DNA from: Croceibacterium atlanticum
GTDB taxonomy: Bacteria; Pseudomonadota; Alphaproteobacteria; Sphingomonadales; Sphingomonadaceae
Length of the DNA stretch: 64,000 nt
NCBI RefSeq assembly: GCF_001008165.2
Contig: NZ_CP011452.2
Coordinates: 558,001-622,000 of the forward strand
Direction: 5' to 3'
Position numbers and translations under genes: made by a program. How positions within the stretch are numbered: position 1 is the first letter of the stretch; every line of letters starts with the position of its first letter. Under the pieces are notes generated by a model. The model searched no databases, had not been told where the DNA came from, and worked only from the letters and a program-made list of their open reading frames with translations. Of the stretch, positions 30,681 to 49,275 are shown one piece after another.

Positions 30681-30756
<76 letters not shown>

Positions 30757-31054: not shown

Positions 31055-31085
31055 GATGCACATCCTGTTCAGTTCGTTTCGCAAG

Positions 31086-31562
31086 TTATCCCTTCCTAGC
31101 CTCCTGCTCAACCGGGTCGGTTGGCGCGATCAGGAAGTCAAAATTCATGTCCGGGGCTGACGGTTTCCAAGGCAGACCGGAGGGATAGGTGACATCGTAT
31201 GGCTGCCACTGTGATGCCGGATCGAGCGAGAGGAGCGTAAACCACTCCCCTGCCCTGCTATGCCGCATCATCAGGTCATGCCAACGATCTGGATCGCGGA
31301 ACCTCGCGTGAACGGCAGCATGGCAACGCTTACAGCAACCGTAGACCTTCAGCGGCTCGCGATAGTCTTCCAGATGAAGAAACCGATAGTCGCGGGCCTG
31401 CGGGCGCTCACTTCGGCCATCTAGGCAGACGGTGCAGATTGTTGGCCGCGTCAGACGACCGTCGCGGATGGCAGCGTTCTGAAGGGGCGTGACGGCACAT
31501 CGCTGCGTCCATGAAAATCCGTTGTAGGCTATCTCCCAAGGTCTGGGGCGGCGATCAATCAT
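31086..31562 (-). CDS. HNH-like small zinc protein
   Basis: 158 residues. A zinc-ribbon/HNH-like core is visible: 'TICTVCLDG' (CxxC), then 'HLEDYREPLKVYGCCKRCHAAVH', in which HLEDY, CKRCH and the final H match the treble-clef HNH pattern around 'HHxDY...CxxCH...H'. The usual HNH catalytic pattern is only partly clear, so nuclease activity is inference. Start at 31562 (MIDRRPRPWEIAYNG); it overlaps the 66-residue gene upstream by 8 bp. Confidence 0.65.
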   Translation of the reverse strand: MIDRRPRPWEIAYNGFSWTQRCAVTPLQNAAIRDGRLTRPTICTVCLDGRSERPQARDYRFLHLEDYREPLKVYGCCKRCHAAVHARFRDPDRWHDLMMRHSRAGEWFTLLSLDPASQWQPYDVTYPSGLPWKPSAPDMNFDFLIAPTDPVEQEARKG

Positions 31563-31755
31563 GGTCGTCCCCAAGCCTGCGCTTGATGGTGGCAAGGGAG
31601 GTATCGAGCGATGCAACTCCCATGCGGAGTTGAGAGGCAAGCACTCGCTGCATGTCCGGTGCGTTATCGCGCCTCTGCCCTTCCACAGCGATCATGTGCA
31701 TGTCTTCGAGCTTCGCCGTGACATCGGCGAATAACCGGGGGATCGCATCTCTCAT
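31555..31755 (-). CDS. hypothetical 66-residue protein
   Basis: A short frame whose ATG overlaps the stop of the resolvase gene (ATGA) and whose end overlaps the HNH-like gene by 8 bp. The protein is helical in character ('MRDAIPRLFADVTAKLEDMH', then a second amphipathic stretch) with no recognised family. Reality is supported mainly by the tight coupling on both sides. Possibly a partner of the resolvase or HNH-like protein. Confidence 0.55.
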   Translation of the reverse strand: MRDAIPRLFADVTAKLEDMHMIAVEGQRRDNAPDMQRVLASQLRMGVASLDTSLATIKRRLGDDHD

Positions 31756-32318
31756 GCGGCCACAGGCTCCGAGAGGATGCGGTAGACCGAACTGCGGCTC
31801 ACCCCCAACTTGGCTGCGATCTCGCAAGCGGCGAGCCCACTGCCCCGCAGTTCGTGCACCTGCGACGCCTTGCGCCGGGCTGTAGGGGCTCGCCCTCTGT
31901 ATTTGCCGTCAGCACGCGCCTTCTGGATGCCTTCCCGCTGCCGCTGAAGAAGAAGCTCGCGCTCGAATTGTGCGAACGCTCCGAACATAGTGACAATTAG
32001 CTTCCCGGACGGTGATTGTGTGTCCACAGCCTGCCCACCGAAGTCGAGTATGCGCAGCCCCACCCCCTTGGCTTCAAGCGTGGCGATGATCGCAAGAAGG
32101 TCCGCCGTCGAACGAGCGAGCCGGTCAAGCCGGGTCACACACAAGGCGTCGCCCTCCCGAACGAAGTCCAAGGCCGAAGCGAGTTGCTCCCGTTGAGCTA
32201 CGGAACTGACCCGTTCAGTGAAGAGCTTGCTGCAACCCGTTGCACGCAGGTCGCGCTCTTGCGCTTCGATCCCGGCAACCTGATCGGCAGTGCTCACACG
32301 GGCATACCCGATCTTCAT
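31752..32318 (-). CDS. serine recombinase (resolvase/invertase family)
   Basis: 188 residues with the full small serine-recombinase layout: N-terminal 'IGYARVSTADQ' with the nucleophile Ser-9, 'VTRLDRLARST' (catalytic Arg pair), the 'FGAFAQFERELLLQRQREGI' E-helix, and a C-terminal HTH ('ACEIAAKLGVSRSSVYRIL'). It catalyses site-specific cutting and rejoining through a phosphoserine link. Start at 32318 (MKIGYARVS). It diverges from the DUF6884-like gene, and three TGTAAT half-sites lie at and just before its start. Confidence 0.9.
   Translation of the reverse strand: MKIGYARVSTADQVAGIEAQERDLRATGCSKLFTERVSSVAQREQLASALDFVREGDALCVTRLDRLARSTADLLAIIATLEAKGVGLRILDFGGQAVDTQSPSGKLIVTMFGAFAQFERELLLQRQREGIQKARADGKYRGRAPTARRKASQVHELRGSGLAACEIAAKLGVSRSSVYRILSEPVAA
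32231..32244. repeat. dispersed 14-bp palindrome, copy 1
   Basis: TGCAACCCGTTGCA, a TGCAAC-CC-GTTGCA interrupted palindrome, inside the resolvase coding sequence. Identical or reverse-complement copies are at 38888, 43010 and 44722. See the finding on this repeat. Confidence 0.7.
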
Positions 32319-32350
32319 GTAATCTCCTGTAATTACACACATATTACAGG
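32318..32350. promoter_or_regulatory. cluster of TGTAAT half-sites before the resolvase gene
   Basis: TGTAAT at 32318-32323 and 32328-32333 and its complement ATTACA at 32343-32348. The second and third form CCTGTAAT-N9-ATTACAGG, a perfect 8-bp inverted repeat; the second is also the left half of a TGTAATTACA palindrome. This is a likely operator or resolvase binding region between the two divergent genes. Confidence 0.5.
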
Positions 32351-32475
32351 ATAATGCTGCCACGCAGCGACACGAAAGTCACGAGAAAGGGGAGCCGATT
32401 GACGAAAAATCTCGACGAAATGATTGCGAAAAAACTGCCTAGCCAAGTGTGATTAGCATCCATTACCAAGTCGTC

Positions 32476-33228
32476 ATGTCACAGGCAGATCGTATCCGGG
32501 CGTTTGTAGTTCAGAGGTTGGTTCAACCTGCGAGAATGGCAGGTCATTCTTCTTTGACCGTTCGAGCGGGTGACGTGCATCAGGCGATGGGTCTGGTGAA
32601 CATGCCACGCGCCGTATGCAGTGTCCTTCGTGGATCGAAACTACATCAAGACGGCGGCGTGATCTTCAAGGGGCAAGAAGGTCCGGCAGACGGCATGAAC
32701 GTCTGGTTCCATTTCGATCTGACAGGCGACCCTATTGAAGCGCCTGCGGCGCGTCGCATCCCGACCTCCCCGGTCAAGCCCTCGTCACCAATCCGGGATG
32801 TTTCCGATTGGTCCGGCGCTCTCGCGTTGATCTCCTGCACCAAAGCAAAGCTCTCGAAGTCCGCCCCTGCGCGTGACCTCTATTCATCCCCAGCGTTCCA
32901 GATGAAGCGCCAGTTGGCAGAACGTGCGGGGGCTTCTTGGGTCGTGCTGTCCGCCAAGCATGGCCTCCTGCAACCGGATGACGTGGTGGAACCCTATGAC
33001 GAGACATTGACCACAATGGGTGTCACGGCTCGGAAGGCATGGGCGCGCAATGTGTTGCCAACGCTAATCCCGCTTGCTCGTGAAGCCGGTCATGTCGTCT
33101 GCCTTGCTGGTCAACGCTACATCGAGTTTCTGGTCCAGCCCATGACGGAAGCCGGGGTGAGTGTATCGCAGCCGCTGAAGGGCTTGCGACAGGGAGAACA
33201 GCTTGCATGGCTGACGCAGCATCAATGA
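32476..33228 (+). CDS. DUF6884-like protein with N-terminal DNA-system-associated domain
   Basis: 250 residues. The C-terminal half ('ALISCTKAKL', 'ARDLYSSPAFQMKR', 'WVVLSAKHGLLQPDDVVEPYD') matches the pattern I know as DUF6884, related in style to YaaA. The first 80 residues ('TVRAGDVHQAMGLVNMPRAVCSVL') form a separate small domain. Function is not established. ATG at 32476 taken over 32449 because the extension has no homology-like sequence. First of three overlapping or adjacent plus-strand genes (32476-34581). Confidence 0.7.
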   Translation: MSQADRIRAFVVQRLVQPARMAGHSSLTVRAGDVHQAMGLVNMPRAVCSVLRGSKLHQDGGVIFKGQEGPADGMNVWFHFDLTGDPIEAPAARRIPTSPVKPSSPIRDVSDWSGALALISCTKAKLSKSAPARDLYSSPAFQMKRQLAERAGASWVVLSAKHGLLQPDDVVEPYDETLTTMGVTARKAWARNVLPTLIPLAREAGHVVCLAGQRYIEFLVQPMTEAGVSVSQPLKGLRQGEQLAWLTQHQ

Positions 33229-33902
33229 ACAGGCTGGACCATCTCCGGCGCTTCTACGACCTGCTGGATGATCTTGCGGATCGGCAGCGCGGACCTCGCC
33301 CACTCGCCGATGCGGTTGCGGCACTAGGAAATGAGAGCGGCGTCTATTTCTTCTTCGAGCCTGAAGAAGTGCGGTCAGACAGCGGGACCGCTCTGCGTGT
33401 CGTCAGGGTTGGAACTCATGCGCTCAAGCCGGGAGCAAGCTCGACGCTTCGCGGTCGCCTGCGACAACATGGCGGGACAAGGGCAGGTAGCGGTAATCAC
33501 CGGGGCTCGATCTTTCGCCTTCTTACGGGTGACGCCCTGATGAGGTGCGGGAGTGAAGCAGTCTGTTCCACGTGGGAAGGAAAACCTGCGAACAAGCTCC
33601 TTGAAGCTCCGCTCGAACTGGCGGTGAGCCTTCGCCTTGCGCTCACCCGCGTGGTCTGGCTTCGCATTGACGACCCGCCCGGACCCGGCAGTCAACGTGG
33701 TTGGATCGAACGCAACTCAATCGCCCTCCTAAGCAATCACGGGAAGACACAACTTGATCCACCGTCAGCGGATTGGCTCGGCCAACACTCAAGTCGCCCG
33801 CTTGTCAGATCGTCCGGCCTATGGAACCAGCGCCATGTCGAAGAGCGGTATGATCCGGCGTTTCTTGATGATCTTGAACTGCTGATCGGCGATCACCGAT
33901 AG
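33207..33902 (+). CDS. GIY-YIG-like nuclease domain protein
   Basis: 231 residues. The order of motifs fits a divergent GIY-YIG nuclease: 'GVYFFFEPEEV' (GIY), 'VVRVGTHAL' (YIG strand), 'LRGRLRQHGG' with the catalytic Arg, and 'GWIERNSIALLSN' with the Glu and a later Asn. Such proteins cut DNA in restriction, repair or homing systems. GGGAG lies 10 nt before the ATG at 33207, and the gene overlaps its upstream neighbour by 22 bp, so both are co-translated. Confidence 0.65.
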   Translation: MADAASMNRLDHLRRFYDLLDDLADRQRGPRPLADAVAALGNESGVYFFFEPEEVRSDSGTALRVVRVGTHALKPGASSTLRGRLRQHGGTRAGSGNHRGSIFRLLTGDALMRCGSEAVCSTWEGKPANKLLEAPLELAVSLRLALTRVVWLRIDDPPGPGSQRGWIERNSIALLSNHGKTQLDPPSADWLGQHSSRPLVRSSGLWNQRHVEERYDPAFLDDLELLIGDHR

Positions 33903-33909
33903 GATGGTT

Positions 33910-34581
33910 ATGACCAAGATACTCATCCCATCAGCCGGAGCCGACGACTGGCAACGCTTCCTCGCCAAGCCTGATCTTCAGTGGAAGTGCGGCTATTCAG
34001 CGCGAGCCCTTGCCCACTGTTGGGAAGCTACGAACGGCATCCCGCACGAAGTCGCCGAGATTATGGCCGGTGGGTTCGGCGAGCCGGAACTTCTCTTCGC
34101 CGTGCCGGAGCACAAGACCTCCCTTCCGGGCGGCACACGCGAGAGCCAGTCCGATATTCTGGCGCTGGTGCGACATGAAGCCGGGCTGGCCACTTACACC
34201 ATTGAGGGAAAGGTCGAGGAGGCGTTTGGCGATACGGTAGCTGATTGGAGCCGCAAGCCTTCCGATGGCAAGATTGAGCGGCTGTCCTACCTTTGCGCAA
34301 CGCTGGGCATCGGGGACTGCCCACCCGGTGTTCGCTATCAGTTACTCCACCGCACCGCATCTGCACTGATCGAGGCCGAACGGTTCAATGCTTCAATGGC
34401 CGGAATGATCGTGCACTCCTTCTCGCCAGCGCGGCGCTGGCTCGATGATTTTCAGAGTTTCGTCGCGCTTCTTGGTGGCGGAGACATTGCGCCCGGCCAA
34501 TCCGTTGTTATCGACACTCCGTCTGGCCGCCCGCTCTTGTTGGGTTGGGCTTGCGGACAGGAACGGTTCCTCACCGCCTAG
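33910..34581 (+). CDS. PD-(D/E)XK-like protein, function unknown
   Basis: 223 residues. A nuclease-like core is visible as 'SQSDILALVRHE' followed after a beta strand by 'YTIEGKVEEAFG', that is D...E-x-K, preceded by Glu in 'GEPELLFAVPEHK'. This spacing suits the PD-(D/E)XK superfamily, but the assignment is from motif only. ATG at 33910 favoured (AGG 6 bases upstream); 33904 is the alternative. Third gene of the DUF6884/GIY-YIG set and followed by the structured non-coding stretch. Confidence 0.6.
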   Translation: MTKILIPSAGADDWQRFLAKPDLQWKCGYSARALAHCWEATNGIPHEVAEIMAGGFGEPELLFAVPEHKTSLPGGTRESQSDILALVRHEAGLATYTIEGKVEEAFGDTVADWSRKPSDGKIERLSYLCATLGIGDCPPGVRYQLLHRTASALIEAERFNASMAGMIVHSFSPARRWLDDFQSFVALLGGGDIAPGQSVVIDTPSGRPLLLGWACGQERFLTA

Positions 34582-34599
34582 CCAGTCCCACATGGCTCT

Positions 34600-34666
34600 A
34601 TGGCCCTGCGGAACCGGCGTCTCAAAAGTCGAAAACCACTTCTGTGCGACGCCATTGCAGGGCCAT
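34600..34666. ncRNA. candidate structured RNA, nested stems before the Res operon
   Basis: ATGGCCCTGC (34600-34609) pairs exactly with 34657-34666. Inside it GGCGTC (34616-34621) pairs exactly with GACGCC (34648-34653). No credible frame covers it. It lies in the 211-bp gap between the PD-(D/E)XK gene and the Res start, together with the hairpin at 34686-34707. No promoter was identified, so an RNA product is inference. Confidence 0.4.
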
Positions 34667-34685
34667 CGCGACAGATCGGTCTTTC

Positions 34686-34707
34686 CCACATGGGCAAACC
34701 CATGTGG
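34686..34707 (+). terminator. 9-bp hairpin with CAAA loop, possible terminator
   Basis: CCACATGGG/CCCATGTGG with a 4-nt loop, then CAGAC and TTTTGTTG. The strong short-loop stem and nearby T-rich tail suit an intrinsic terminator for the upstream three-gene set or for a small RNA at 34600. The five bases before the T run weaken the call. Confidence 0.5.
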
Positions 34708-34792
34708 CAGACTTTTGTTGTCAATTCAGCGGCTCACGGCCTTGTGATTGGTGCTCTCTTAATCAATACAGGTCAGGTTGAGGGGGCTTTGC

Positions 34793-37700
34793 GTGTCACA
34801 ATCGTTTTTCGATCATCCTATTCTTAATTCGCCGTATGAACCGCCAACCCGGCATCATGCGCTGGACGAAGACGGTCAGCCGCTTGAACAGCCTCCAATC
34901 GAAGGTCGGCGACCCTGCGACTTCATCACGCCGGTTCCTAAGCCAAAGCGCCGGTCGAGCAAGGCTGCACAAGCCTCAATGTTGTTCGACGATGCGACCG
35001 GCCTTTCCGATGACGATCAGGAATACAATCCGAAGCCGATCATCAATGAGATACGTGCGCACGTCACCACGTGGCGCAATCTGCCCAACGACCGGGACTG
35101 GGGCGTTACCCCGGCGACGGCTCGCCTACTGCATCATTGGCGGCGCACCGAGGTGGAAGGTCTCCGGCCATTCTTCTGTCAGGTCGAAGCCGTCGAAACG
35201 GTAATCTGGCTGACCGAAGTTGCACGGACGCAGAAACGGTATGCTCACCTGTGGAAGCATATCGAAGGTGCCAACCGGGCATCGAGCCCGGAACTGATGC
35301 GTATCGCAATGAAAATGGCGACCGGCGCGGGCAAGACCACTGTCATGGCGATGCTGATCGCGTGGCAGACCGTCAACGCCGTCCGCTCCCCGAATAGCAG
35401 CTATTTCAGTCGAGGGTTCCTTATCGTCGCGCCGGGCATCACCATCAAGGATCGGTTGCGCGTCCTGCTGCCCGACGATCCCGACAGTTATTATCGCAAC
35501 CGCGACTTGGTGCCCTCCGATATGCTCCCGGAGATCGGCAAGGCCAAGGTCGTCATCACGAACTACCATTCCTTCAAACGCCGCGAGACGATGGATGTCT
35601 CAAAGGTCGGGAAGGCCCTGCTGCAAGGTCGTGGCGAGGCTCCGACAACCATCGAGAGCGAAGGGCAGATGCTTCAGCGCGCCTGCGGCGAGTTGATGAC
35701 GATGAAGAATGTTGTCGTCATCAATGACGAGGCGCACCACTGCTATGAAGAGCGTCCGCAGGGCAGTATCGAAGAACTGACCGATGCTGACAGCAAGGCC
35801 GAAGCCAAGGAAAACAAGGAAGCTGCGCGGCTCTGGATCAACGGCATCAAGGCGCTGAAGAAGAAGGTCGGCGTGCGGGCCGTCTATGACCTTTCCGCCA
35901 CCCCGTTCTTCCTCGCCGGATCAGGCTACGTCGAAGGCACCTTGTTTCCGTGGGTTGTGAGCGATTTCTCGCTGATGGACGCCATTGAGTGCGGCATCGT
36001 GAAGCTCCCGCGTGTGCCGGTGGCCGACAACCTGCCGATTGCCGACATGCCAATCTACCGCAAGTTGTGGGATCACATCGGCAAGGAGATGCCGAAAAAG
36101 GGCGCGAAGAAGTCCGAAGACCTCAACCCCCTGAAGCTCCCGACTAAGCTGCTGACGGCGCTGGATGCGCTCTATAATCATTATGTTCTGGTCCATGAGG
36201 AATGGAAGCGCGCGGGCATCCCCGTGCCGCCCGTCTTCATCGTGGTCTGCAACAACACTGCCACCTCGAAGCTGATCTACGAATACATCTCGGGCTGGGA
36301 TCGCCCCAATGCGGACGGCGAACTGGTCAATGTCCATCGCGGTCATCTCGAACTATTCCGCAACTACGATGAGCACGGCAACCGGATCGCCCGCGCCCCT
36401 ACCCTGCTGATCGACAGCGCACAGCTTGAGAGCGGCGAGGCGTTGGATAAGAACTTTCGCAAGATTGCCGAAGCCGAGATCGAGCAGTTCCGGCGCGAAC
36501 GGCAGGAGCGCACCGGGCGTGTCGAAAATGCCGATGACATCGACGATGCCGAATTGCTTCGGGAGGTGATGAACACCGTTGGTCAAGTCGGGCGTCTTGG
36601 CGAGAATATCCGCTGCGTCGTCTCGGTCTCAATGCTCACCGAAGGTTGGGACGCGAACACTGTTACGCACATTCTCGGCGTTCGGGCTTTCGGAACGCAG
36701 TTGTTGTGCGAGCAGGTCGTCGGGCGCGGCCTGCGCCGCCAATCCTACGAACTCAACGAACAGGGCTTGTTCGATGTCGAATATGCCGATGTGCTCGGTA
36801 TCCCCTTCGACTTCACTGCCAAGCCTGTCGTGGTCAAGCCCACACCCCCCAAGCTCGTCACTCGCGTCCACGCTGTAAAGGAGCGGGTAGCCGAACGCCC
36901 GGAGTTGGAGATCATCTTCCCCCGCGTCGAAGGCTACCGCGTCGATCTCCCGGAAGAGAGGATCAGCGCTAACTTCACCGATGACAGCCGGCTGATTGTC
37001 GATCCCGAAATGATCGGCCCTTCCCGCGTCACCATGTCGGGCATCGTCGGCGCAACCGATGAATTGGCAGCGAAGGGTGTTGGCGATGACCGGCCCAGCG
37101 CCGTTGCCTATGCCCTCGCCGCTCATCTGCTCAAGCGGTTCGGTGACGAAAGCGGCGACTTGCCGGTGCACCTCTTCGGGCAGGTCCGGCGTATCGTGCG
37201 CGAATGGCTCGACGGCGGCTATCTGGTGCTCAAGGGCGTGCCCATGGGCGTGCTCGATTACCTTGAGATCAAGGATCAGGCGGCAGAGCGCATCTTTCTT
37301 GCCTGCCAGCGGTATGAGCATGGCCCGAAGTCGATCAAAGCGATCCTCGATCCCTACAATCCCAAGTCCACCACCCGGCACGTGAACTTCACGACCAGCA
37401 AGGACACTTACTCGACCAACCACCGCCGCAGTCACGTCAGCCATGTGGTCTGTGACAGCACGTGGGAAGCCGAACTCGCCCGCGTGCTCGAAACCCATCC
37501 TCGTGTCGTGGCCTACGTGAAGAACCAAGGCCTCGGTCTGGAAGTCCCATACCGCGATGGAGCGAAGCCGCGCCGCTACATCCCGGACATGGTCGTGCGG
37601 CTGGATGACGGCAAGGGCCCGGACGATCTGATCAACCTCGTCCTAGAGACCAAGGGCTATCGCAAGGGCGATGCCCAATTGAAGGCGGAGACCATGAAGA

Positions 37701-37840
37701 CCCTGTGGGTGCCGGGTGTGAACAATCTCGGCACGTTCGGTCGCTGGGTCTTTGCCGAGTTCTGCGACATGCCTCTGATCGAGAACGACTTCGATACGTT
37801 GGTCGAGATCATTCTGGCGGAAGGCAATGCCAATGTCTGA
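34793..37840 (+). CDS. Type III-like restriction enzyme Res subunit (helicase-nuclease)
   Basis: 1015 residues. SF2 helicase motifs: 'MATGAGKT' (about 175), 'VVINDEAHHCY' (about 310), 'YDLSATPFF', 'VSMLTEGWDANTVTHILG' and 'EQVVGRGLRR'. The C-terminus has a PD-(D/E)XK nuclease: 'RYIPDMVVRL' (about 929) and 'LVLETKGYR' (about 952). This is the Res-like family annotated in some genomes as BPTD_3080 family. It should translocate and cut DNA lacking the Mod mark. GTG at 34793 chosen: GAGGGGG lies 6-7 nt upstream. It overlaps the next gene by 8 bp. Confidence 0.9.
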   Translation: MSQSFFDHPILNSPYEPPTRHHALDEDGQPLEQPPIEGRRPCDFITPVPKPKRRSSKAAQASMLFDDATGLSDDDQEYNPKPIINEIRAHVTTWRNLPNDRDWGVTPATARLLHHWRRTEVEGLRPFFCQVEAVETVIWLTEVARTQKRYAHLWKHIEGANRASSPELMRIAMKMATGAGKTTVMAMLIAWQTVNAVRSPNSSYFSRGFLIVAPGITIKDRLRVLLPDDPDSYYRNRDLVPSDMLPEIGKAKVVITNYHSFKRRETMDVSKVGKALLQGRGEAPTTIESEGQMLQRACGELMTMKNVVVINDEAHHCYEERPQGSIEELTDADSKAEAKENKEAARLWINGIKALKKKVGVRAVYDLSATPFFLAGSGYVEGTLFPWVVSDFSLMDAIECGIVKLPRVPVADNLPIADMPIYRKLWDHIGKEMPKKGAKKSEDLNPLKLPTKLLTALDALYNHYVLVHEEWKRAGIPVPPVFIVVCNNTATSKLIYEYISGWDRPNADGELVNVHRGHLELFRNYDEHGNRIARAPTLLIDSAQLESGEALDKNFRKIAEAEIEQFRRERQERTGRVENADDIDDAELLREVMNTVGQVGRLGENIRCVVSVSMLTEGWDANTVTHILGVRAFGTQLLCEQVVGRGLRRQSYELNEQGLFDVEYADVLGIPFDFTAKPVVVKPTPPKLVTRVHAVKERVAERPELEIIFPRVEGYRVDLPEERISANFTDDSRLIVDPEMIGPSRVTMSGIVGATDELAAKGVGDDRPSAVAYALAAHLLKRFGDESGDLPVHLFGQVRRIVREWLDGGYLVLKGVPMGVLDYLEIKDQAAERIFLACQRYEHGPKSIKAILDPYNPKSTTRHVNFTTSKDTYSTNHRRSHVSHVVCDSTWEAELARVLETHPRVVAYVKNQGLGLEVPYRDGAKPRRYIPDMVVRLDDGKGPDDLINLVLETKGYRKGDAQLKAETMKTLWVPGVNNLGTFGRWVFAEFCDMPLIENDFDTLVEIILAEGNANV

Positions 37841-38759
37841 TCGCAAGAAATACGCTGGCACGAACGAAGACCTTGCCGATCACGCGCTTGAACCAACAAT
37901 GCGTCGCCTCATCGCTGTCGCTCTCGATGGAGACACAATTACCTATGGCGACATTAAGCACATGCTAGAAACCGAGGAAGGCTTTTCAACCATCTTCGCT
38001 ACGCGGATCGGGTTTGTCGCGGGCACGCTCATGGAGCGCCTGCAAAAGGTCGATCCCGCTGCGCCGCTAATCAATGTCCTCGTCGTCAATCAAATCGACC
38101 GGCAACCTAGCAAGGGTGCAGGCAGTTTCATGGCTGCACGGTTCGGCATCCCGCAGTTGGCGAAAGACGGTGCCAAGGAGAAGCATCCCAAGCTGTGGGA
38201 AGATACCTACCAGCGAGCCGCTGCCGAGGTTTATGCCTATGAGGCGAAGGACTGGACGAAACTGTTCAAGAAGGCGTTTGCGAACGACTTGACCCTCGGC
38301 AAGATCGAGGAAGAACGGGAAGCCCGAAAGGAAGGGACCGAAAATGACGGTCTCGATTACAATCACCGCAGTTATGGAAAGGGCGGTGAAGGCCCGGAAC
38401 ATAAAGCATTGCGCGAATGGGTGACGGCCAACCCCGGAGCCATTCGGAAGGGCTTCGCCTCTGCCCGCACTGAAACGGAAGTCGATCTCTTTTCAGGGGA
38501 TCGCGTTGATGCGGTCTTCTACTGCCAGGATCGGACCATCGTTGTCGAAGTCAAATCGCTCATCTCGAATGAGATCGACCTACGGCGTGGCGTCTATCAG
38601 TGTATCAAATACCGTGCCGTGAAAGCTGCGATGGACGTTCGGGACGATCCTCTCGTTGAAGCCTTTCTGGTGACGGAAACCGCAGTTTCTGGCGAGATCG
38701 CAAGCCTCCTTCGTCTACACAAGATCAAGCACTTCGTTGCTCCGCAAAACAGGAATTGA
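37833..38759 (+). CDS. stand-alone PD-(D/E)XK protein between Res and Mod
   Basis: 308 residues. The N-terminal part (about 1-100: 'TMRRLIAVALDGDTITYGDI' ... 'VLVVNQIDR') is a separate all-purpose domain not recognised. The C-terminal part has a clear nuclease signature: Asp in 'SGDRVDAVFYC' followed by 'TIVVEVKS' (D...E-x-K), with 'GGEGPEHKALREWV' before it. It sits between res and mod, where classic Type III systems have no gene. ATG at 37833 has GGAAGG 8 nt upstream; ATG at 37827 is too close to it. It overlaps res. Confidence 0.75.
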   Translation: MSDRKKYAGTNEDLADHALEPTMRRLIAVALDGDTITYGDIKHMLETEEGFSTIFATRIGFVAGTLMERLQKVDPAAPLINVLVVNQIDRQPSKGAGSFMAARFGIPQLAKDGAKEKHPKLWEDTYQRAAAEVYAYEAKDWTKLFKKAFANDLTLGKIEEEREARKEGTENDGLDYNHRSYGKGGEGPEHKALREWVTANPGAIRKGFASARTETEVDLFSGDRVDAVFYCQDRTIVVEVKSLISNEIDLRRGVYQCIKYRAVKAAMDVRDDPLVEAFLVTETAVSGEIASLLRLHKIKHFVAPQNRN

Positions 38760-38763
38760 GTTG

Positions 38764-41709
38764 ATGGCCCGCAAGCCCAAGGCCCAGAAGCAGGTTGGCA
38801 CGCTGAATTATGAGAAGGATGTTCGCCGGAACATCCCGACTGCCGAGATGGCCGATCTGGCCGCGATGCAGGAGGAAATGGCTCCGCTGCAACCCGTTGC
38901 ATATCCGCGTGCCCGGCCCTTGGCCGAAGGCGAGGTGCGGGAGCGGAATGAAGACCTTGATCCGCAGATCGTGTGGAAGGGCCTGAAGATTACGCTGACC
39001 AAGGATCAGGTGGCGCAGCTTGCCGAAACCGGCACCATCGAGATTGGCGATGCGCAACTCGTGTGGCGCGGGAAGGACCGGCAGGACTGGTCCGACCTGA
39101 TCGTCACCGCGCCGCCGTTGTATATTCAAGAAAAGGTCCACCCCAAGGCGATCATTGACGATCTGGTCCGCCAGACCGAAGAGGCGAAGGAAGAGGCTAG
39201 CGACGCGCCGGACCTGTTCGCCGACTTCAACGGCCTGTCCGATCCGATGGCGCGCACCGAGTTTTACCAGCACGATCAACATTGGTCGAACCGGATGATC
39301 CTAGGCGACAGCTTGCAGGTGATGGCCAGCCTCGCCGAGCGCGAGGCGCTGAAAGGCAAGGTGCAGGCGATCTATTTCGACCCGCCCTATGGCATCAAAT
39401 TCAACTCGAATTGGCAGGTCTCGACCCAGAGCCGGGATGTGAAGGACGGGAAAAGAGAGGATTTGAGCCGTGAGCCGGAACAGGTCAAAGCGTTCCGGGA
39501 TACATGGAAGGACGGTATCCATTCATACCTTACGTATCTCCGCGACCGACTTCTGGTCATGAGAGAATTACTAACCGAAAGCGGCTCGATATTCGTTCAA
39601 ATAAGCGATGAAAATGTCCATCGCATGCGTGCGTTGCTAGATGAGGTCTTTGGCGAGGAGAACTTCGTCTCGCAGATTGCTTTCAAGAAAACGACGGGTC
39701 TTACATCGGGCTATATTGCATCGAACTTTGATCATATCGTCTGGTATGGGAAGAGCTATAAGTCGCTGAAATTCAGGTCTCTTCTAACCGAGAAGGGTTG
39801 GGAGAGCGACTTAGGTTTTTACAAGTATCTTCGAGATAAGGAGAGCGGCGCACTCGAAAATGCGATAAAATCGACAAACGAAATTCCATCTGATGGGTCT
39901 AAGCAGCTTTATAGCGTCAGCGACTTAACGAGTAGCCACGATTATTCGTTGGGCAAGGAGGCGTTTCCGTTTCGGGGACAAACATACTCTCCTGCTCGGA
40001 GATTTTGGACAACGTCACCGGATGGCATGAGACGTCTCGCCGCAGCGCAACGCATACACCAGAGTAAGAACTCCATCCGTTATGTTAGGCTTCTCGACGA
40101 TTATCCTGTCCAGCTGATAACTTCGAACTGGGCAGATACAATCACTGGTCAGTATTCTGACGAGCGCACCTACGTGGTGCAAACCGCCGCGAAGGTCGTC
40201 CAACGGTGCCTTTTGATGACCACCGATCCCGGCGATCTTGTTCTTGACCCCACCTGCGGCTCTGGAACGACTGCCTACGTCGCAGAGCAGTGGGGACGAC
40301 GCTGGATAACCATAGACACAAGTCGCGTAGCGCTGGCTCTTGCTCGCACTCGGATCATGGCTGCCCGCTACCCTTGGTATTTGTTGGCGGACAGCGAAGA
40401 AGGAAAGCGCAAAGAAGCCGAGATCACGGGTAAGCTGCCAAGCGACCGTCCGTCTTTCGGAGACGTGCGACAGGGTTTCGTTCTTGAGCGTGTGCCCCAC
40501 GTCACTTTGAAGGCGATCGCTAACAACTCCGAGATTGATGTGATCTGGGACAAGTGGCAGGAACGGTTGGAGCCCCTACGCGCCGAGCTCAATCAGGCCA
40601 CCAGCAATGACTGGCAGGAATGGGAAATTCCACGCGAACCCGAAGCTGGCTGGTCTTCCAACGTGGTCGGCATCCATCAGGGTTGGTGGGACGCCCGCAA
40701 GGCTCGCCAACAAGAGATTGACGCCTCCATCGCTCGCGCCGCCGATGTCGAATACCTCTATGACAAGCCCTACACCGACAACAGCCGTATCCGGGTTGCC
40801 GGTCCGTTCACCGTGGAAAGCCTTTCCCCGCATCGTATAGTTCCCGCCGATGCCGAGGAACTGGTCGATCAGATCGACGCTGAAGCATACGGTATGGAAG
40901 GCAGCAAGCCGAGGAAGCCCGGGCCGCTGTCCTCGTCCGAAACTGACTTCGCCGCCATGGTGATCGAGCATCTGAAAACGGCGGGCGTCCACCAGACCGA
41001 CAAGGCCGACCGGATCGCGTTTACCAGTCTCACGCCGTTCGCCGGGCGCGGCTACATCGCCGCCGAAGGCCGCTTCATGGAAGGCGAGGCCGAGCGCCGC
41101 GCCGCCATCTTCATCGGCCCGGAGTTCGGCACGCTCTCCCGCGTCGATCTCACTGCCGCTGCGCGCGAAGCGTCCGAAAGCCGGTTTGACGTGCTGATCG
41201 CGGTGAGCTTCGCCTTCGATGCCCATGCCAGCGAACTGACCCGGCTTGGCCCGCTGCCGATCCTCAAAGCCAAGATGAACCCCGACCTGCACATGTCGGA
41301 AGAACTCAAGAACACCGGCAAGGGCAACCTCTTCACCGTGTTCGGCGAGCCGGACATCGACATTCTGGAAGAACCCGATGGCCGCATCGCGGTGCGCGTC
41401 AACGGCGTGGACATCTACGATCCCAATACAGGCGAAGTCCGCTCCAATGATGTGAAGGGCATCGCCGCGTGGTTCATCGACACGGCTTACAACGAAGAGA
41501 GCTTCTTCGTCCGTCACGCCTACTTCCTCGGCGCAAACGACCCCTACAAGCAGTTGAAGACCACTCTGAAAGCCGAGATCGACGAAGAGGCATGGGCCAC
41601 GCTCAACCGCGCCACCTCCCGCCCTTTTAACCGCCCGGAAAGTGGCCGCATTGCAGTGAAGGTTATCAATCACTTCGGTGATGAGGTGATGAAGGTGTTC
41701 GGGGTGTAA
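38764..41709 (+). CDS. Type III-like DNA methyltransferase (Mod)
   Basis: 981 residues, an amino-methyltransferase of the beta type: motif IV DPPY in 'AIYFDPPYGIKF' (about 205) precedes the SAM motif in 'VLDPTCGSGTTAYVAEQWG' (about 495). DPPY predicts N6-adenine (or N4-cytosine) methylation. The stretch between them (bases about 39480-40200) is clearly AT-richer than the rest and is the expected target-recognition region, a sign of exchange. A long C-terminal part (about 620-981) goes beyond typical Mod. It follows the nuclease gene with AGGA upstream and abuts the TIR-like gene. Confidence 0.9.
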   Translation: MARKPKAQKQVGTLNYEKDVRRNIPTAEMADLAAMQEEMAPLQPVAYPRARPLAEGEVRERNEDLDPQIVWKGLKITLTKDQVAQLAETGTIEIGDAQLVWRGKDRQDWSDLIVTAPPLYIQEKVHPKAIIDDLVRQTEEAKEEASDAPDLFADFNGLSDPMARTEFYQHDQHWSNRMILGDSLQVMASLAEREALKGKVQAIYFDPPYGIKFNSNWQVSTQSRDVKDGKREDLSREPEQVKAFRDTWKDGIHSYLTYLRDRLLVMRELLTESGSIFVQISDENVHRMRALLDEVFGEENFVSQIAFKKTTGLTSGYIASNFDHIVWYGKSYKSLKFRSLLTEKGWESDLGFYKYLRDKESGALENAIKSTNEIPSDGSKQLYSVSDLTSSHDYSLGKEAFPFRGQTYSPARRFWTTSPDGMRRLAAAQRIHQSKNSIRYVRLLDDYPVQLITSNWADTITGQYSDERTYVVQTAAKVVQRCLLMTTDPGDLVLDPTCGSGTTAYVAEQWGRRWITIDTSRVALALARTRIMAARYPWYLLADSEEGKRKEAEITGKLPSDRPSFGDVRQGFVLERVPHVTLKAIANNSEIDVIWDKWQERLEPLRAELNQATSNDWQEWEIPREPEAGWSSNVVGIHQGWWDARKARQQEIDASIARAADVEYLYDKPYTDNSRIRVAGPFTVESLSPHRIVPADAEELVDQIDAEAYGMEGSKPRKPGPLSSSETDFAAMVIEHLKTAGVHQTDKADRIAFTSLTPFAGRGYIAAEGRFMEGEAERRAAIFIGPEFGTLSRVDLTAAAREASESRFDVLIAVSFAFDAHASELTRLGPLPILKAKMNPDLHMSEELKNTGKGNLFTVFGEPDIDILEEPDGRIAVRVNGVDIYDPNTGEVRSNDVKGIAAWFIDTAYNEESFFVRHAYFLGANDPYKQLKTTLKAEIDEEAWATLNRATSRPFNRPESGRIAVKVINHFGDEVMKVFGV
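38888..38901. repeat. dispersed 14-bp palindrome, copy 2
   Basis: TGCAACCCGTTGCA in the mod gene, read as part of 'PLQPVAYP'. Same orientation as copies 1 and 3. Confidence 0.7.
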
Positions 41710-42617
41710 TGTATAGCTTGCTTGTTTCAGCAAACGATGAGGCTTGGCAGGGGCGACCCTACGTCCTCTCTCGTGGGCGCGTCTTCGAGTATACTGAAGA
41801 TGCGATTGCCGCACGTTTCAAGGATTTTACCGAAGAGCAAATTCAACACCTCTGCTCTCTTCCTGCCGTGTTCGCGTATGAGAACGGAATAGATCAGGAT
41901 GCCCGGCTGGGTCGTGTGCGGGCTGTTCGCATCCTGCATGGGGATATTCGGATCGAATATGAATTAGCCGACGAAGCGCCACCAATCCCCTTCGCCCTGC
42001 TAAGTCAGGAAGCCAATGAACTCGACATAGGCGACTGGGAAATGAACCGCACACACTGGGCGGTTAAGGATGTGAACCTCGCTCCTTTCTTGGATCGCCA
42101 TGGAATAGTTGGTCTTAACGCCCAAGAGATTGAGGCAGCGAATGAGCCTTTCGAGCGGCTGCCAGTCGCTGAACCAATTCCAATCAGTCCCGCAGTATTT
42201 CGCATCCCACAGACACCAATTGATCCGAACCTAGTCGCGGTGATGATGCCGTTCACGCCGGAGTTCGACGCAATGCTCGCGCAAGTCACTGCGGCTTGCC
42301 AAGAACTCGGCCTGACCTGTCTGACGGCTGGGCAGGTGTGGGAAAATGAAGAGATCATTCAGGACATCTTCTCGCTTATTTATCGTGCCCGGATCGTGCT
42401 TTGCGACTTCACGGGCCAGAACGCCAATGTCTTCTACGAGGCAGGGATCGCCCACACGCTGGGCAAGCCGGTAATTCCAATTGCCCGAAACGTCGCCGAT
42501 TTGCCGTTTGACCTCCGCCACCATCGAGCGGCGGTCTATGAAAACACGGCTGACGGCCTTACTCGGCTCGTTGCTCAACTACGGCCACGCTTCCAGTGGC
42601 TCATGGAGCATGGCTGA
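41709..42617 (+). CDS. TIR/nucleoside deoxyribosyltransferase-like protein
   Basis: 302 residues. The C-terminal 130 residues have the flavodoxin-like pattern shared by deoxyribosyltransferases and TIR-like proteins: 'VAVMMPFTPEFD' (about 178), 'IYRARIVLCDFTGQNANVFYEAGIAH' region with the candidate catalytic Glu at about 242, and 'LPFDLRHHRAAVY'. Members of this group cleave N-glycosidic bonds or bind nucleotides in defence systems, so NAD or nucleotide attack is possible. The N-terminal half is unrecognised. The start shares a base with the mod stop and the end overlaps the helicase gene. Confidence 0.7.
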   Translation: MYSLLVSANDEAWQGRPYVLSRGRVFEYTEDAIAARFKDFTEEQIQHLCSLPAVFAYENGIDQDARLGRVRAVRILHGDIRIEYELADEAPPIPFALLSQEANELDIGDWEMNRTHWAVKDVNLAPFLDRHGIVGLNAQEIEAANEPFERLPVAEPIPISPAVFRIPQTPIDPNLVAVMMPFTPEFDAMLAQVTAACQELGLTCLTAGQVWENEEIIQDIFSLIYRARIVLCDFTGQNANVFYEAGIAHTLGKPVIPIARNVADLPFDLRHHRAAVYENTADGLTRLVAQLRPRFQWLMEHG

Positions 42618-44706
42618 CATGAATTTCCATATCGCCGACAGCTTCACTACCGCCCTGTCTCGTCTCACCGGACAGGAGCAAAAACAGGCCAAGACTTCGG
42701 CGTTCGACCTGCAACTAAACCCTGCCCATCCGGGCCTTAAGATGCACCGACTGACCAATGGCCGCGATCCCAACTTCTGGTCCGTGCGGGTCAATCAGGA
42801 CATCCGCATCATCATTCATAAGACCGAAGCGAGCTTCATGCTGGCCTATGTCGATCACCACGACGATGCCTATACTTGGGCATCCCGTCGCCGGATCGAG
42901 GAACACCCCCGAACTGGTGCGATCCAGATCGTCGAGGTCCACGAGACGGTGGAAGAGGATGCCGGGCCTCTCTTCGCAGCGCCGAAGATCGAGCCCGCGC
43001 CAGAGCCCTTGCAACCCGTTGCACCCGCGATCTTCGCGGACCTTACCGAAGACGCTTTGTTGGACATTGGCACGCCCTCCGACTGGGTTGCCGACATCAT
43101 GACGTGGACCGAGGATCGCTTTTTTCACATGAGCGACCGGCTTCCCGCCGAGGTTGCGGAGGCGTTGCTGGACTACGCTGCAACTGGCCGACTGCCAACG
43201 CCGGAACCTGGAACTGCCGATCCGTTCGCCCATCCAGATACGCTCCGTCGCGTCCAGACCATCACCAGCGAAGCGGAATTGCGGCTGGCGCTCGACTTCC
43301 CGTGGGATAAGTGGAGCGTCTTTCTTCACCCTTCGCAGCGAGATGTCGTCGAGCGGGACTTTTCCGGCCCAGCGCGTGTTATGGGCACGGCTGGCACCGG
43401 CAAGACCATTGTCGCCCTGCATCGCGCGGCGCGTGCTGTTCGCGAGGATGACCGGGCGCGCATCCTTCTGACCAGCTTCTCCCGCCCGCTGGCCAACGCG
43501 CTGAAGGCGAAGCTGGCCATCTTGCTGGCCGACGATCAGGGGAAGCTGGACCGCGTGTCGATTGTGTCGTTCGAGGATGCCGCAACGGAGCTATTTCAGC
43601 TTGCCACGGGGCTGAGGCCCACCCTCGCCCCAATTGATGCCCAGAACGCCGCCCTAGAGCGCGCTATGGCCGATTTGGGCTACACCGACCTGCCCCTGCG
43701 TTTCGTTACCGCCGAGTGGCGGCAGATCGTGGACGCTTGGAACCTGCCCGATCTGGAAAGCTATTCGGCAGTCCCGCGCATCGGGCGGCGCAACCGTCTG
43801 GGCTCTAAGCAGCGCGAAGCGTTGTGGCCGGTCTTTGAGACGGCCCGCGCAATGCTGTCTGCAAGAGGCCTCCTGACATCCTCGCAACTGTTCGCCACCG
43901 TCGAAGCCGCCTTCAAGGATAAGGAGGATAAGCCCTTCACGCACGTGATCGTGGACGAAGCGCAAGATTTGGGCGTTTCGGAACTTCGCATGATGGGTGC
44001 GATCTCGTCCGGGCAGAACTCACAATTCTATGCTGGCGATATTGGCCAGCGGATTTTCCAGTTACCATTCTCATGGCTGACACTGGGTGTCGATGTCCGG
44101 GGCCGTGCTTCGAGTTTGCGGATCAATTATCGAACCTCACGCCAGATCAGAGAAGCGGCGGACCAACTCCTGCCACAGAAAGTCCGCGACGTGGACGGGA
44201 TCGAGGACGACCGAACTGGTGCGCAATCTGTGTTTGAAGGACCGGCTCCGGTAATCGCACAATTTGCCAATCAGGCCGACGAAACCGCCAACGTGGCTGC
44301 CTATCTGCGTGCAGCAATCGAGGAAGGTATCAGCGCGGCAGAGATCGGCGTCTTCGTTCGCTCTGCTGAATATCTGCCCCGCGCGCGAGATGCTGTCACT
44401 GCGGCTGGCCTAGAGGGACGGCAGCTAACCGAACGGGCCGAAGACTTCGGCGACAGCGTTTCGCTGGGCACCATGCACCTTGCGAAAGGCTTAGAGTTCA
44501 AGGCGGTCGTTGTCATGGCCTGCGATGACGAGGCGCTACCCCTGCAATCGCGGGTGGACGCTGCCACCGACGAAGACGAACTGCGTGAGGTCTTTGATAC
44601 CGAGCGGCACCTATTCTACGTCGCCTGCACGCGAGCGCGAGACCGGCTGCACGTGACTGGTGTGCAGCCGGTCTCCGACTTCGTGGCCGATATGTTGACG
44701 ATGTAG
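42610..44706 (+). CDS. UvrD-family helicase with N-terminal RelE/ParE-like domain
   Basis: 698 residues. Residues 1-95 ('MNFHIADSFTTALSRL', 'GLKMHRLTNGRDPNFWSVRV', 'IRIIIHKTEASFMLAYVDHHDDAY') follow the RelE/YafQ toxin-fold pattern. The rest is an SF1 helicase: 'MGTAGTGKTIVALHR' (about 259), 'HVIVDEAQDLG' (about 447), 'LRINYRTSRQIREA', 'LGTMHLAKGLEFKAVVV' and 'RHLFYVACTRARDRL'. ATG at 42610 overlaps the previous stop; ATG at 42619 has better GGAG spacing and may be the true start. Last gene of the Res-Mod operon. Confidence 0.8.
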   Translation: MADMNFHIADSFTTALSRLTGQEQKQAKTSAFDLQLNPAHPGLKMHRLTNGRDPNFWSVRVNQDIRIIIHKTEASFMLAYVDHHDDAYTWASRRRIEEHPRTGAIQIVEVHETVEEDAGPLFAAPKIEPAPEPLQPVAPAIFADLTEDALLDIGTPSDWVADIMTWTEDRFFHMSDRLPAEVAEALLDYAATGRLPTPEPGTADPFAHPDTLRRVQTITSEAELRLALDFPWDKWSVFLHPSQRDVVERDFSGPARVMGTAGTGKTIVALHRAARAVREDDRARILLTSFSRPLANALKAKLAILLADDQGKLDRVSIVSFEDAATELFQLATGLRPTLAPIDAQNAALERAMADLGYTDLPLRFVTAEWRQIVDAWNLPDLESYSAVPRIGRRNRLGSKQREALWPVFETARAMLSARGLLTSSQLFATVEAAFKDKEDKPFTHVIVDEAQDLGVSELRMMGAISSGQNSQFYAGDIGQRIFQLPFSWLTLGVDVRGRASSLRINYRTSRQIREAADQLLPQKVRDVDGIEDDRTGAQSVFEGPAPVIAQFANQADETANVAAYLRAAIEEGISAAEIGVFVRSAEYLPRARDAVTAAGLEGRQLTERAEDFGDSVSLGTMHLAKGLEFKAVVVMACDDEALPLQSRVDAATDEDELREVFDTERHLFYVACTRARDRLHVTGVQPVSDFVADMLTM
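43010..43023. repeat. dispersed 14-bp palindrome, copy 3
   Basis: TGCAACCCGTTGCA in the linker of the helicase gene between the RelE-like and helicase parts, read as 'PLQPVAPA'. Confidence 0.7.
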
Positions 44707-47919: not shown

Positions 47920-49065
47920 TCAGTCGTCCTCGCTGCCATCAGCTTCCTCGCCAAGCAGGTTTGTTGCTCGACGCATGGCTTCATCAGCTAGGTGGCTATA
48001 TCTCGCAGTAGTCGATACCTGTGTGTGACCTAGCAATCCGCCGATTATTGGCAGCGAGGCCCCTCTAGATACGAGTGCCGATGCATAGGAATGGCGAAGA
48101 TCATGGATGCGAAGACCACTGATGTTTGCCTCACGGCAAACGGCACTGAACGTCTTCCTGATCTCGGTCAGCGCCTCGCCGTTTTTTCCGGGGAAAATAT
48201 ACTCGCAGTCAGAAAGCGCACGCGCACGCCGGAGAACGGCCATCGCAGCATTTGAAAGGGGAACGCGATGAAGCCTTCGCTGCTTGGTGTGTGCGCTCGG
48301 CTTGATCCACGCTTCTTGAACGAAGTCGATCTGCTCCCAGCGCGCCTTCAACACTTCACCCCGACGGGCTCCGGTTAACAACAGGAAGTGGAGGGCGAGA
48401 ACTGACGGCGTGTCCTCACGGGCATCCAGTGCGGCGACGAACCGCGCACGCTCAAGATCGTCTAAGTAACGCTGACGGGGGCGCTCGGAGTTTTTCTTGA
48501 TACCGGTGACCGGGTTAGATGAGACGAGTTCCCACCTGATGGCCATATTGAAAGCGTGACGGATGCTGGCAATGCAGCGATTGGCCTGCACAGGTGTAGT
48601 CGCGCTGATACCGAGGTGGAAAGCATCCACATCTCCCGGCCTAATGTGCGAAAGCCGTCGCCGCCCGAGTTTCGGCAGTATGAGACGCCTCCACAAGGAT
48701 CGCTCGTCCTTCTGCGTGCTCTCGGCCTTTCGCGGCAAGACTAGCTTCTCATACCGCTCCCAAAGCTGCTCCAAGGTATACTCGGCGCGAGCAACCTGTT
48801 GCTCATCCAGCGGATCATCCCCTGCATCGACACGCAACCGTAATTTAGCTGCCATTTGGCGTGCTGCGACAACCGACCACGCCGGATATTGCCCAATGGT
48901 CATTCGTCGATCCCGGCCACGTGAGGTGTAGCTGAAGATGAAAGCCGTGTGCCCCGTTGCGGTCTTTCTCACACCAAAGCCAGTGACCAGATTATCACGC
49001 TCGATCTTCTGCCCCTCCTTAGGCGTAAGCATTTCCCGGATCAGTTTGTCAGTTATGCGCGGCAT
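47920..49065 (-). CDS. tyrosine recombinase / island integrase
   Basis: 381 residues. N-terminal arm-binding DUF4102-like part ('NLVTGFGVRKTATGHTAFIF'), core-binding SAM-like domain, and catalytic residues: Arg in 'LLTGARRGEVLKARW', His-x2-Arg in 'IHDLRHSYAS', 'GLLGHTQVSTTARYSHL' with His and the nucleophile Tyr. Start at 49065 (MPRITDKLIREML). It sits beside attR, reading inward, as usual for tRNA-targeting integrases, and should act on the 46-bp repeat in tRNA-Lys. Confidence 0.95.
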   Translation of the reverse strand: MPRITDKLIREMLTPKEGQKIERDNLVTGFGVRKTATGHTAFIFSYTSRGRDRRMTIGQYPAWSVVAARQMAAKLRLRVDAGDDPLDEQQVARAEYTLEQLWERYEKLVLPRKAESTQKDERSLWRRLILPKLGRRRLSHIRPGDVDAFHLGISATTPVQANRCIASIRHAFNMAIRWELVSSNPVTGIKKNSERPRQRYLDDLERARFVAALDAREDTPSVLALHFLLLTGARRGEVLKARWEQIDFVQEAWIKPSAHTKQRRLHRVPLSNAAMAVLRRARALSDCEYIFPGKNGEALTEIRKTFSAVCREANISGLRIHDLRHSYASALVSRGASLPIIGGLLGHTQVSTTARYSHLADEAMRRATNLLGEEADGSEDD

Positions 49066-49069
49066 CTCA

Positions 49070-49086
49070 TGTCCGTCCCATGTCCG
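49070..49086. repeat. 17-bp repeat near right island end (candidate arm site)
   Basis: Second copy of TGTCCGTCCCATGTCCG, 5 bp upstream of the integrase start codon. Binding here could also control integrase expression. Confidence 0.55.
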
Positions 49087-49229
49087 TCCGAATGACGGAT
49101 TGAGTGTCAAAAGCCGTGCTTGAATGACGTGGTGTGTCCCGCGATCACATGACGATAACTGGCGGATTTGCGTCATTTTTCGCCAGAAATGGCAGAATAC
49201 CGAGCTTTTCAAATACCTTGCCCGCCCGC

Positions 49230-49275
49230 ACTCTTAATCAGCGGGTCCTAGGTTCGAGCCCTAGTGCGTCCACCA
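49230..49275 (+). repeat. attR: 46-bp direct repeat of the tRNA-Lys 3' end
   Basis: Exact copy of 30711-30756, lacking the 5' half of the tRNA, so it is not a functional tRNA gene. Marks the right border of the island. Confidence 0.95.

Follow-up and report, generated by a model that had tools for sequence, protein, structure and literature searches.

Closest described systems and the locus under study

The gene pair analysed in this work, formed by the open reading frames (ORFs) ORF1 and ORF2, lies in a stretch of 64,000 nucleotides of Croceibacterium atlanticum (contig NZ_CP011452.2), hereafter the window, whose own positions serve as coordinates throughout, and parts of it recall several proteins described before. 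On the side of the nuclease, CMoRE is a GIY-YIG type IV restriction enzyme made of a single protein with a modified-cytosine sensor, for which no known homologue is reported (PMC12923530). In R.Eco29kI, mutants at Y49, R104, H108, E142 and N154 lose all or most of their activity (PMC1952068), and R.Hpy188I, a member of the GIY-YIG superfamily, has a lysine in the place of the YIG tyrosine (PMC2630997). On the side of the base-binding proteins, the Pfam authors have grouped DUF6884 with YaaA and named the CxxxK and LSAxxG motifs; they also report that YfjM, a DUF6884 protein of B. subtilis, counts among the proteins interacting with abasic or RNA-base lesions, and they model base flipping (PMC11701544). 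Finally, PADLOC lists a candidate named PDC-M57, without a description.

In the window, ORF1 runs on the plus strand from an ATG at 32476 (an alternative GTG is at 32449) to 33228, and the ATG is the best start since the N-termini of like relatives align there. ORF2 is open from an ATG at 33207, but the ATG at 33225, which overlaps the stop codon of ORF1 in an ATGA, is the likelier start; ORF3 begins one base past the stop of ORF2 (Table 1). An earlier note on this DNA had described these genes as overlapping or adjoining, and had proposed that together they could form a distinct defence system with two nucleases. Coordinates, open frames and family matches bear out the arrangement: the three genes are intact and open, have operon-like spacing and each match a named family, and they look like genes of a single transcript, which would make them co-transcribed. 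Judging from the gene neighbourhoods presented below, the functional unit is nevertheless the ORF1-ORF2 pair and not the trio, and this pair is spread across many bacteria and archaea. The annotation of the locus is corrected accordingly, from a unit of three genes to one of two.

Conservation of the pair, fusions and exchange of partners

A scan with ORF2 of a genome collection covering 84,980 species gave 111 relatives, and the best 80 of these define the 80 loci (designated by L numbers) on which our counts are based. In 62 of them, a match to a DUF6884 profile, which was built on the loci themselves and could drift, is found at most 600 nucleotides from the ORF2 relative or in the same ORF. 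The two genes have the same strand in 57 of these pair loci and are divergent in five, all haloarchaeal. Outside the 80, locus L013 encodes a YaaA protein 85 nucleotides from its ORF2 relative. Eight of the 80 loci carry both domains in one ORF, with the YaaA-type domain first in six (L018, L023, L053, L084, L085 and L094) and second in two (L028 and L089). Of the co-occurrence that the earlier note had asked for, the part concerning the DUF6884 and GIY-YIG-like genes holds; the part concerning the third gene, which belongs to DUF6946, does not.

We also followed the partners on a tree of the ORF2 family, whose 79 rows represent 74 of the 80 loci (without L040, L047, L075, L082, L087 and L090). 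On this tree, obtained by a quick method, with many weak branches and with partner classes that we assigned ourselves, the fused state needs at least eight changes and the partner class changes at least ten times. Eight of nine YaaA-type partners from other subfamilies match PF21818 or PF03883 with E-values up to 0.0014, and that of L013 is the only one of the nine past the Pfam cut-off; DpdC is weakly matched by six of ten other partner-side proteins scanned. For the YaaA-type N-terminal domain of the fused protein of L018, the fold search gave E. coli YaaA at Z 10.0 (5caj; root-mean-square deviation 3.4, 137 residues aligned) and AF0587, an archaeal protein, at Z 9.1 (2q07), followed by a third entry at Z 6.6. 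These repeated changes of partner class, taken with the Pfam checks, indicate that the YaaA-type role is kept while the subfamilies swap. Since the partners come from several YaaA subfamilies, the element common to the loci is the combination of a nuclease-like protein with one or another member of the YaaA superfamily. Partner swapping and fusion in both orders point to a modular design of reader and cutter.

The two proteins of the pair

The second half of ORF1 matches DUF6884 with 158.5 bits against a cut-off of 30, as the label given in the earlier note had it, and the whole protein corresponds to PDC-M57A of PADLOC (model PDLC04712), with a weak match to DpdC (1.6e-8). In its predicted structure (predicted local distance difference test, pLDDT, 91.3; predicted template modelling score, pTM, 0.62) the fold search recovered YaaA for the C-terminal part, and for the N-terminus the winged helix of CtsR bound to DNA, with a middling score. 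In the alignment of ORF1-type members, C121 and K125 are invariant in all the rows that cover them (37 of 39), S159 and A160 are kept in 39 of 39 rows and G163 in 34. ORF1 belongs to the DUF6884/YaaA superfamily by a match past the Pfam cut-off, by the CxxxK and LSAxxG motifs and by the cantaloupe fold. The suggestion that a protein of this kind might handle bases agrees with the published family analysis by Pfam (PMC11701544).

Stand-alone DUF6884 proteins are also encoded by phages, including Halobacterium phage ChaoS9, and in a viral fold library their folds are close to that of the pair's reader; the nearest such protein is from Caulobacter phage Kronos (E 9.6e-12). It is possible that they act as decoys or as base-modifying enzymes.

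ORF2 has no match in Pfam and corresponds to PDC-M57B of PADLOC (model PDLC04714). All but one of the 79 family members retain the tyrosine of the GIY half-motif (Y47), while that of the YIG half-motif is replaced by arginine in 78 of 79; R84 (78/79), H88 (77/79) and E168 (77/79) are conserved as well. In our reading of the alignment, R84 and E168 would be the catalytic arginine and glutamate of GIY-YIG enzymes, after R104 and E142 of Eco29kI. The model of the fused relative from L018, made with 81 rows (pLDDT 95.2, pTM 0.89), has in its ORF2-like part the order strand-strand-helices-strand-helix, and there we read Y47, R84 and E168 as placed at the positions seen in GIY-YIG enzymes. ORF2 is GIY-YIG-like on the support of motif and topology only, and its fold is not independently confirmed; the earlier label stands as far as these two go, and a significant profile match does not accompany it. 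Matches of the ORF2 profile to RbcX-like structures in the PDB (ORF134, which we take to be RbcX, E 0.007) were judged to be due to chance. Neither did ORF2 match any of 50,697 phage records, nor was a relative confirmed in a scan of viral contigs. Relatives of ORF2 are rare, being found in three of 149 genomes of the family (one by a short and weak match) and in two of 398 genomes of the phylum, with this genome counted in both.

ORF3 is not a conserved partner

ORF3 matches DUF6946 with 281 bits against a cut-off of 27, and its D84, E101 and K103 are invariant in nine of nine aligned DUF6946 proteins. As DUF6946 is a family of PD-(D/E)XK type, of clan CL0236 and closest to EndoMS (PMC10584680), the Pfam match and the D...(E)xK residues place ORF3 in this group, and the earlier PD-(D/E)XK-like label was correct. 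The three-gene module, by contrast, was rejected, because the trio was not found together in the other loci examined, an outcome that the earlier note itself had named as refuting it. DUF6946 was absent from all 80 other ORF2 loci, within the flanks fetched, some of which are short at contig ends. Conversely, no DUF6884 or ORF2 relative stands near DUF6946 in any of 14 other loci (four plasmids and ten genome stretches), among which L121 (gene at the contig start) and L119 (near a contig end) largely show one side only and L109 has an interrupted gene; these 14 were taken without the short contig pieces L103-L105 and without L118, which is under the Pfam cut-off, and with four of eight plasmid records read. 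Nor did any conserved third gene stand out in the pair loci, where the clusters printed were mainly shadow ORFs of the pair. We take the position of ORF3 next to the pair as a local arrangement.

Elsewhere, the neighbours of DUF6946 are mostly housekeeping genes, judging by the 25 families listed of the 87 Pfam families among 103 neighbour proteins, and match 13 PADLOC families; on these grounds DUF6946 was rejected as a regular island gene. ORF3 had no match in the 50,697 phage records, and HigB-1/DUF6946 is listed as a toxin-antitoxin annotation in the table of a marine toxin-antitoxin survey (PMC12654330).

Defence context of the pair

Through the matches of ORF1 and ORF2 to PDC-M57A and PDC-M57B, the pair falls under an existing entry among the catalogued candidates for phage defence. 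To describe its surroundings we used 143 of 227 chosen neighbour proteins (at most two per locus and none from L088-L094), obtained with simple longest-ORF gene calls. The commonest Pfam family among them is GmrSD_N (6/143), followed by phage integrases (4/143); in GmrSD enzymes, GmrSD_N belongs to modification-dependent restriction. At E-values up to 1e-10, these neighbours match 125 PADLOC families, against 24 for 107 genes taken elsewhere in this genome and 13 for the 103 DUF6946 neighbours, where the figures count families and not proteins and the controls come from this genome alone.

Two loci present further combinations. In L036, a winged helix of ORF1 type and an HNH domain are combined in the product of the gene next to the ORF2 relative, which PADLOC matches as a type IV methyl-directed enzyme (7.6e-28). 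After the ORF2 relative and this HNH type IV-like enzyme comes, in third place, a YaaA-like protein that also has a winged helix (L036, 6705-7709 and 7771-8742), and this trio is a mix of readers and cutters. L017 (2429-3337) holds the nearest relative of the window's ORF2 by tree path; by profile it has no YaaA-type partner, and the gene adjoining its ORF2 relative is an Mrr-like restriction enzyme by our reading.

Proposed function and alternative explanations

We give about an even chance to the explanation that ORF1 and ORF2 form a restriction system of two components that has no conserved methylase, in which the YaaA-type protein would read an unusual base, leaving the cut to the GIY-YIG-like protein. 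ORF1 would bind DNA through its winged helix and its YaaA-fold (DUF6884) domain, and the latter would probably flip a non-canonical base, which could stem from a phage modification or from damage, into a pocket whose walls carry CxxxK and LSAxxG; ORF1 would then position or license the putative ORF2 nuclease for cutting that DNA, with presumed anti-phage activity. As we saw no methylase as a constant companion of the pair, we infer that host DNA would be spared by not containing such a base, on the pattern of type IV restriction. ORF3 would be a separate PD-(D/E)XK-type nuclease, sharing the transcript here by chance. Given a DNA-binding and probably base-flipping fold and a nuclease-like protein, with no conserved methylase seen, restriction triggered by an unusual base is the simplest model. 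More tentatively, and with the balance somewhat against it, the pair could represent a modular restriction class of bacteria and archaea, with exchangeable readers of the YaaA superfamily, each for a different non-canonical DNA base, and a single conserved cutter of GIY-YIG-like type, to which they are fused or not, in either order and often with a swappable helix-turn-helix domain. If so, the sensing of bases in immunity would become a function of the YaaA fold.

Several observations weigh against this explanation. As regards the pairing, a YaaA-type match is found 1.3-2.5 kilobases (kb) away in three of the 80 loci and the DUF6884 profile gives none in 15, among which a YaaA-like gene lies at 0.35 kb in L087 and at 1.1 kb in L036, while L040 and L082 are cut at a contig end; five of the matches are weak (below 60 bits), including one truncated at the edge of its contig. 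On plasmids, where four of nine matches were read, DUF6884 is adjacent in L006, about 2.2 kb away in L005 and absent from L007 and L008. As regards the nuclease, hhalign comparison of the ORF2 family gave 1.3% with PF01541 members and 4.5% with Eco29kI relatives, on a scale where known Eco29kI relatives reach just 36% with PF01541 members; a Pfam scan of the 79 family members found GIY-YIG in one (E 0.16), and no GIY-YIG structure appeared in the fold search lists for the fused L018 model, although these lists are uninformative on this point because the YaaA domain filled them. As regards the context, near-identical loci account for at least three of the GmrSD-type neighbours. Methylases do occur: a cluster that we read as type I methylase-like is present in four of the 80 loci (one as an antisense ORF), a crude motif scan pointed to 19 loci, of which about six are convincing, and a type III methylase lies inside the island of this window. 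With only four clusters and about six convincing motifs we consider it likely that no methylase is a conserved partner, a check that on the PADLOC side covered the best 25 of the 125 neighbour families. Moreover, E. coli YaaA has been tied to oxidative stress and not to defence (PMC11701544). We found no published experiment on the pair in the literature searched; the pairing is named in none of the titles and passages covered, with bioRxiv and subscription papers outside the search, and the name PDC-M57 appeared in no paper of that literature.

Among the alternatives, the YaaA-type domain might be an enzyme, such as a glycosylase or a lyase, by which the unusual base is excised or changed, after which the GIY-YIG-like protein would cut the damaged site. 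We consider such base excision rather unlikely. The invariant cysteine and lysine of CxxxK would fit it, as would the link of YfjM to abasic and RNA-base lesions (PMC11701544) and the weak likeness of ORF1 to DpdC, an enzyme that acts on a DNA base; SMUG1 DNA glycosylases recur in the fold lists at Z about 5, but many unrelated folds reach the same score in the same lists. DpdC also raises the question of whether the DUF6884 protein modifies host bases as DpdC does, with ORF2 restricting the unmodified DNA. The weak DpdC similarity of ORF1 and of the six partner-side proteins mentioned above would agree with this protective modification, and so would a DpdA-like protein found once among the 143 neighbours (1.3e-74). 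The substrate of DpdC, however, is what DpdA inserts, and one DpdA model had no strong match (best E 3.3e-6) in the 47 genomes with pair loci that were searched (48 of the 80 loci's genomes were chosen, that of L043 is missing, and the other 32 are outside the search); none of eight scanned window proteins matched DpdA. We regard this explanation as very unlikely.

A pair devoted to DNA repair or to the maintenance of its element, and not directed at phages, is in our opinion unlikely. The oxidative-stress tie of YaaA and the lesion binding of YfjM (PMC11701544) speak for it, and the pair is carried on a likely integrative element; against it stand the patchy occurrence of ORF2 relatives in the genomes of the family and the phylum, and the neighbours' 125 PADLOC families as compared with 24 for the control genes. 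As for ORF1, ORF2 and ORF3 acting as one system with two nucleases, operon-like spacing and intact motifs in all three would favour it, but the counts of 0/80 and 0/14 make it highly improbable. It should be noted that the action of YaaA/DUF6884 proteins on DNA is poorly defined. The question becomes directly testable with a small pair in which such a protein is coupled to a nuclease-like one and in which fusions and exchanges of partner occur naturally.

The island and the neighbouring operon

The setting of the pair in a defence island, stated in the earlier note, was confirmed by a type III-like Res/Mod operon downstream, by perfect repeats of 46 base pairs (bp) at a tRNA-Lys and by an integrase-like gene. 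The tRNA-Lys occupies 30681-30756, and the right repeat is an exact copy of the 46 bases at its 3' end. Because of these exact repeats and of the adjoining integrase-like gene, the stretch of about 18.5 kb between them is likely an integrative island with two nuclease operons. Repeats of the 46-bp block are also present in both of the genus's other genomes, suggesting a hot spot for integration; in these two genomes no ORF2 relative was found, and a clean empty site could not be demonstrated, as the right-hand flank is at a different place and there is more than one copy of the block. Directly upstream of ORF1, on the opposite strand, is a serine recombinase (31752-32363, minus strand; Resolvase PF00239, 1e-40). 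The Res protein of the downstream operon belongs to the BPTD_3080 family (1265 bits), and with it are encoded a small nuclease-like protein, a type III Mod-like methylase and a TIR/deoxyribosyltransferase-like protein. Between ORF3 and this operon, structured non-coding DNA is indeed present as previously noted: the spacer folds better than its own shuffles, contains strong hairpins including a perfect 9-bp inverted repeat and is single copy in the genome, and an Rfam search of positions 31000-43000, spacer included, gave no family above threshold.

Table 1. Features of the locus, in positions of the window
Feature	Positions	Strand	Evidence
ORF1, winged helix and DUF6884 (YaaA fold), PDC-M57A	32476..33228	+	PF21818 1.3e-46; PDC-M57A 9.5e-36; model pLDDT 91.3; YaaA 5caj Z 9.7
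ORF1 N-terminal winged helix (about residues 2-85)	32479..32730	+	CtsR-DNA 3h0d Z 7.2 over 72 residues
DUF6884 domain with intact CxxxK (C121, K125) and LSAxxG (S159, A160, G163)	32824..33219	+	Pfam, alignment
ORF2, GIY-YIG-like nuclease, PDC-M57B	33225..33902	+	PADLOC 3e-76; Y47, R84, H88, E168; topology in the model of a fused relative
ORF3, DUF6946, PD-(D/E)XK-type nuclease candidate, local third gene	33904..34581	+	PF22187 5.9e-84; D84, E101, K103; absent from 80/80 pair loci
Structured non-coding spacer ahead of the Res operon	34582..34777	+	z -3.9; single copy; no Rfam match
Neighbouring defence operon: Res, nuclease-like, type III Mod, TIR/NDT-like, helicase-like	34778..44706	+	Family matches; helicase-like from reading
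Left 46-bp repeat (attL-like), 3' end of tRNA-Lys	30711..30756	+	Repeat search
Right 46-bp repeat (attR-like), identical to left	49230..49275	+	Repeat search
Tyrosine-type integrase-like gene of the island	47920..49212	-	Named from reading the translation, without family match; adjoins right repeat

Comparison with known systems

The likeness to the Dpd 7-deazaguanine system is limited to the weak DpdC match of ORF1, and the pair differs from it in the lack of a strong DpdA match in the 47 genomes searched. With the YaaA/YfjM family the pair shares the fold (Z 9.7-10.0) and the CxxxK and LSAxxG motifs, while the nuclease-like partner or fusion and the winged helix of ORF1 set it apart. With R.Eco29kI the ORF2 family shares the L..RL..H arrangement, arginine and histidine being separated by three residues in both (R84-x3-H88 in ORF2, R104-H108 in the enzyme; PMC1952068), although the ORF2 family has no significant profile match to Eco29kI relatives; as in R.Hpy188I, a charged residue takes the place of the YIG tyrosine, arginine in ORF2 and lysine in Hpy188I (PMC2630997). 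Unlike the case of these two enzymes, no methylase was seen as a conserved partner at ORF2 loci.

The nearest working analogue is CMoRE, in which a GIY-YIG nuclease is also coupled to a base sensor; there a single protein does both, while here the sensor would be a separate partner with the YaaA fold, a comparison made by description (PMC12923530). The closest listed system is PDC-M57, both components of which are found here in adjacent and overlapping genes. The locus differs from it in the DUF6946 gene that follows, and ORF2 relatives also adjoin YaaA-type proteins that match M57A weakly or not at all. The pair is a member of this existing candidate, and what our analysis adds is the failure of the third gene, the swapping of partners and the fusion in both orders.

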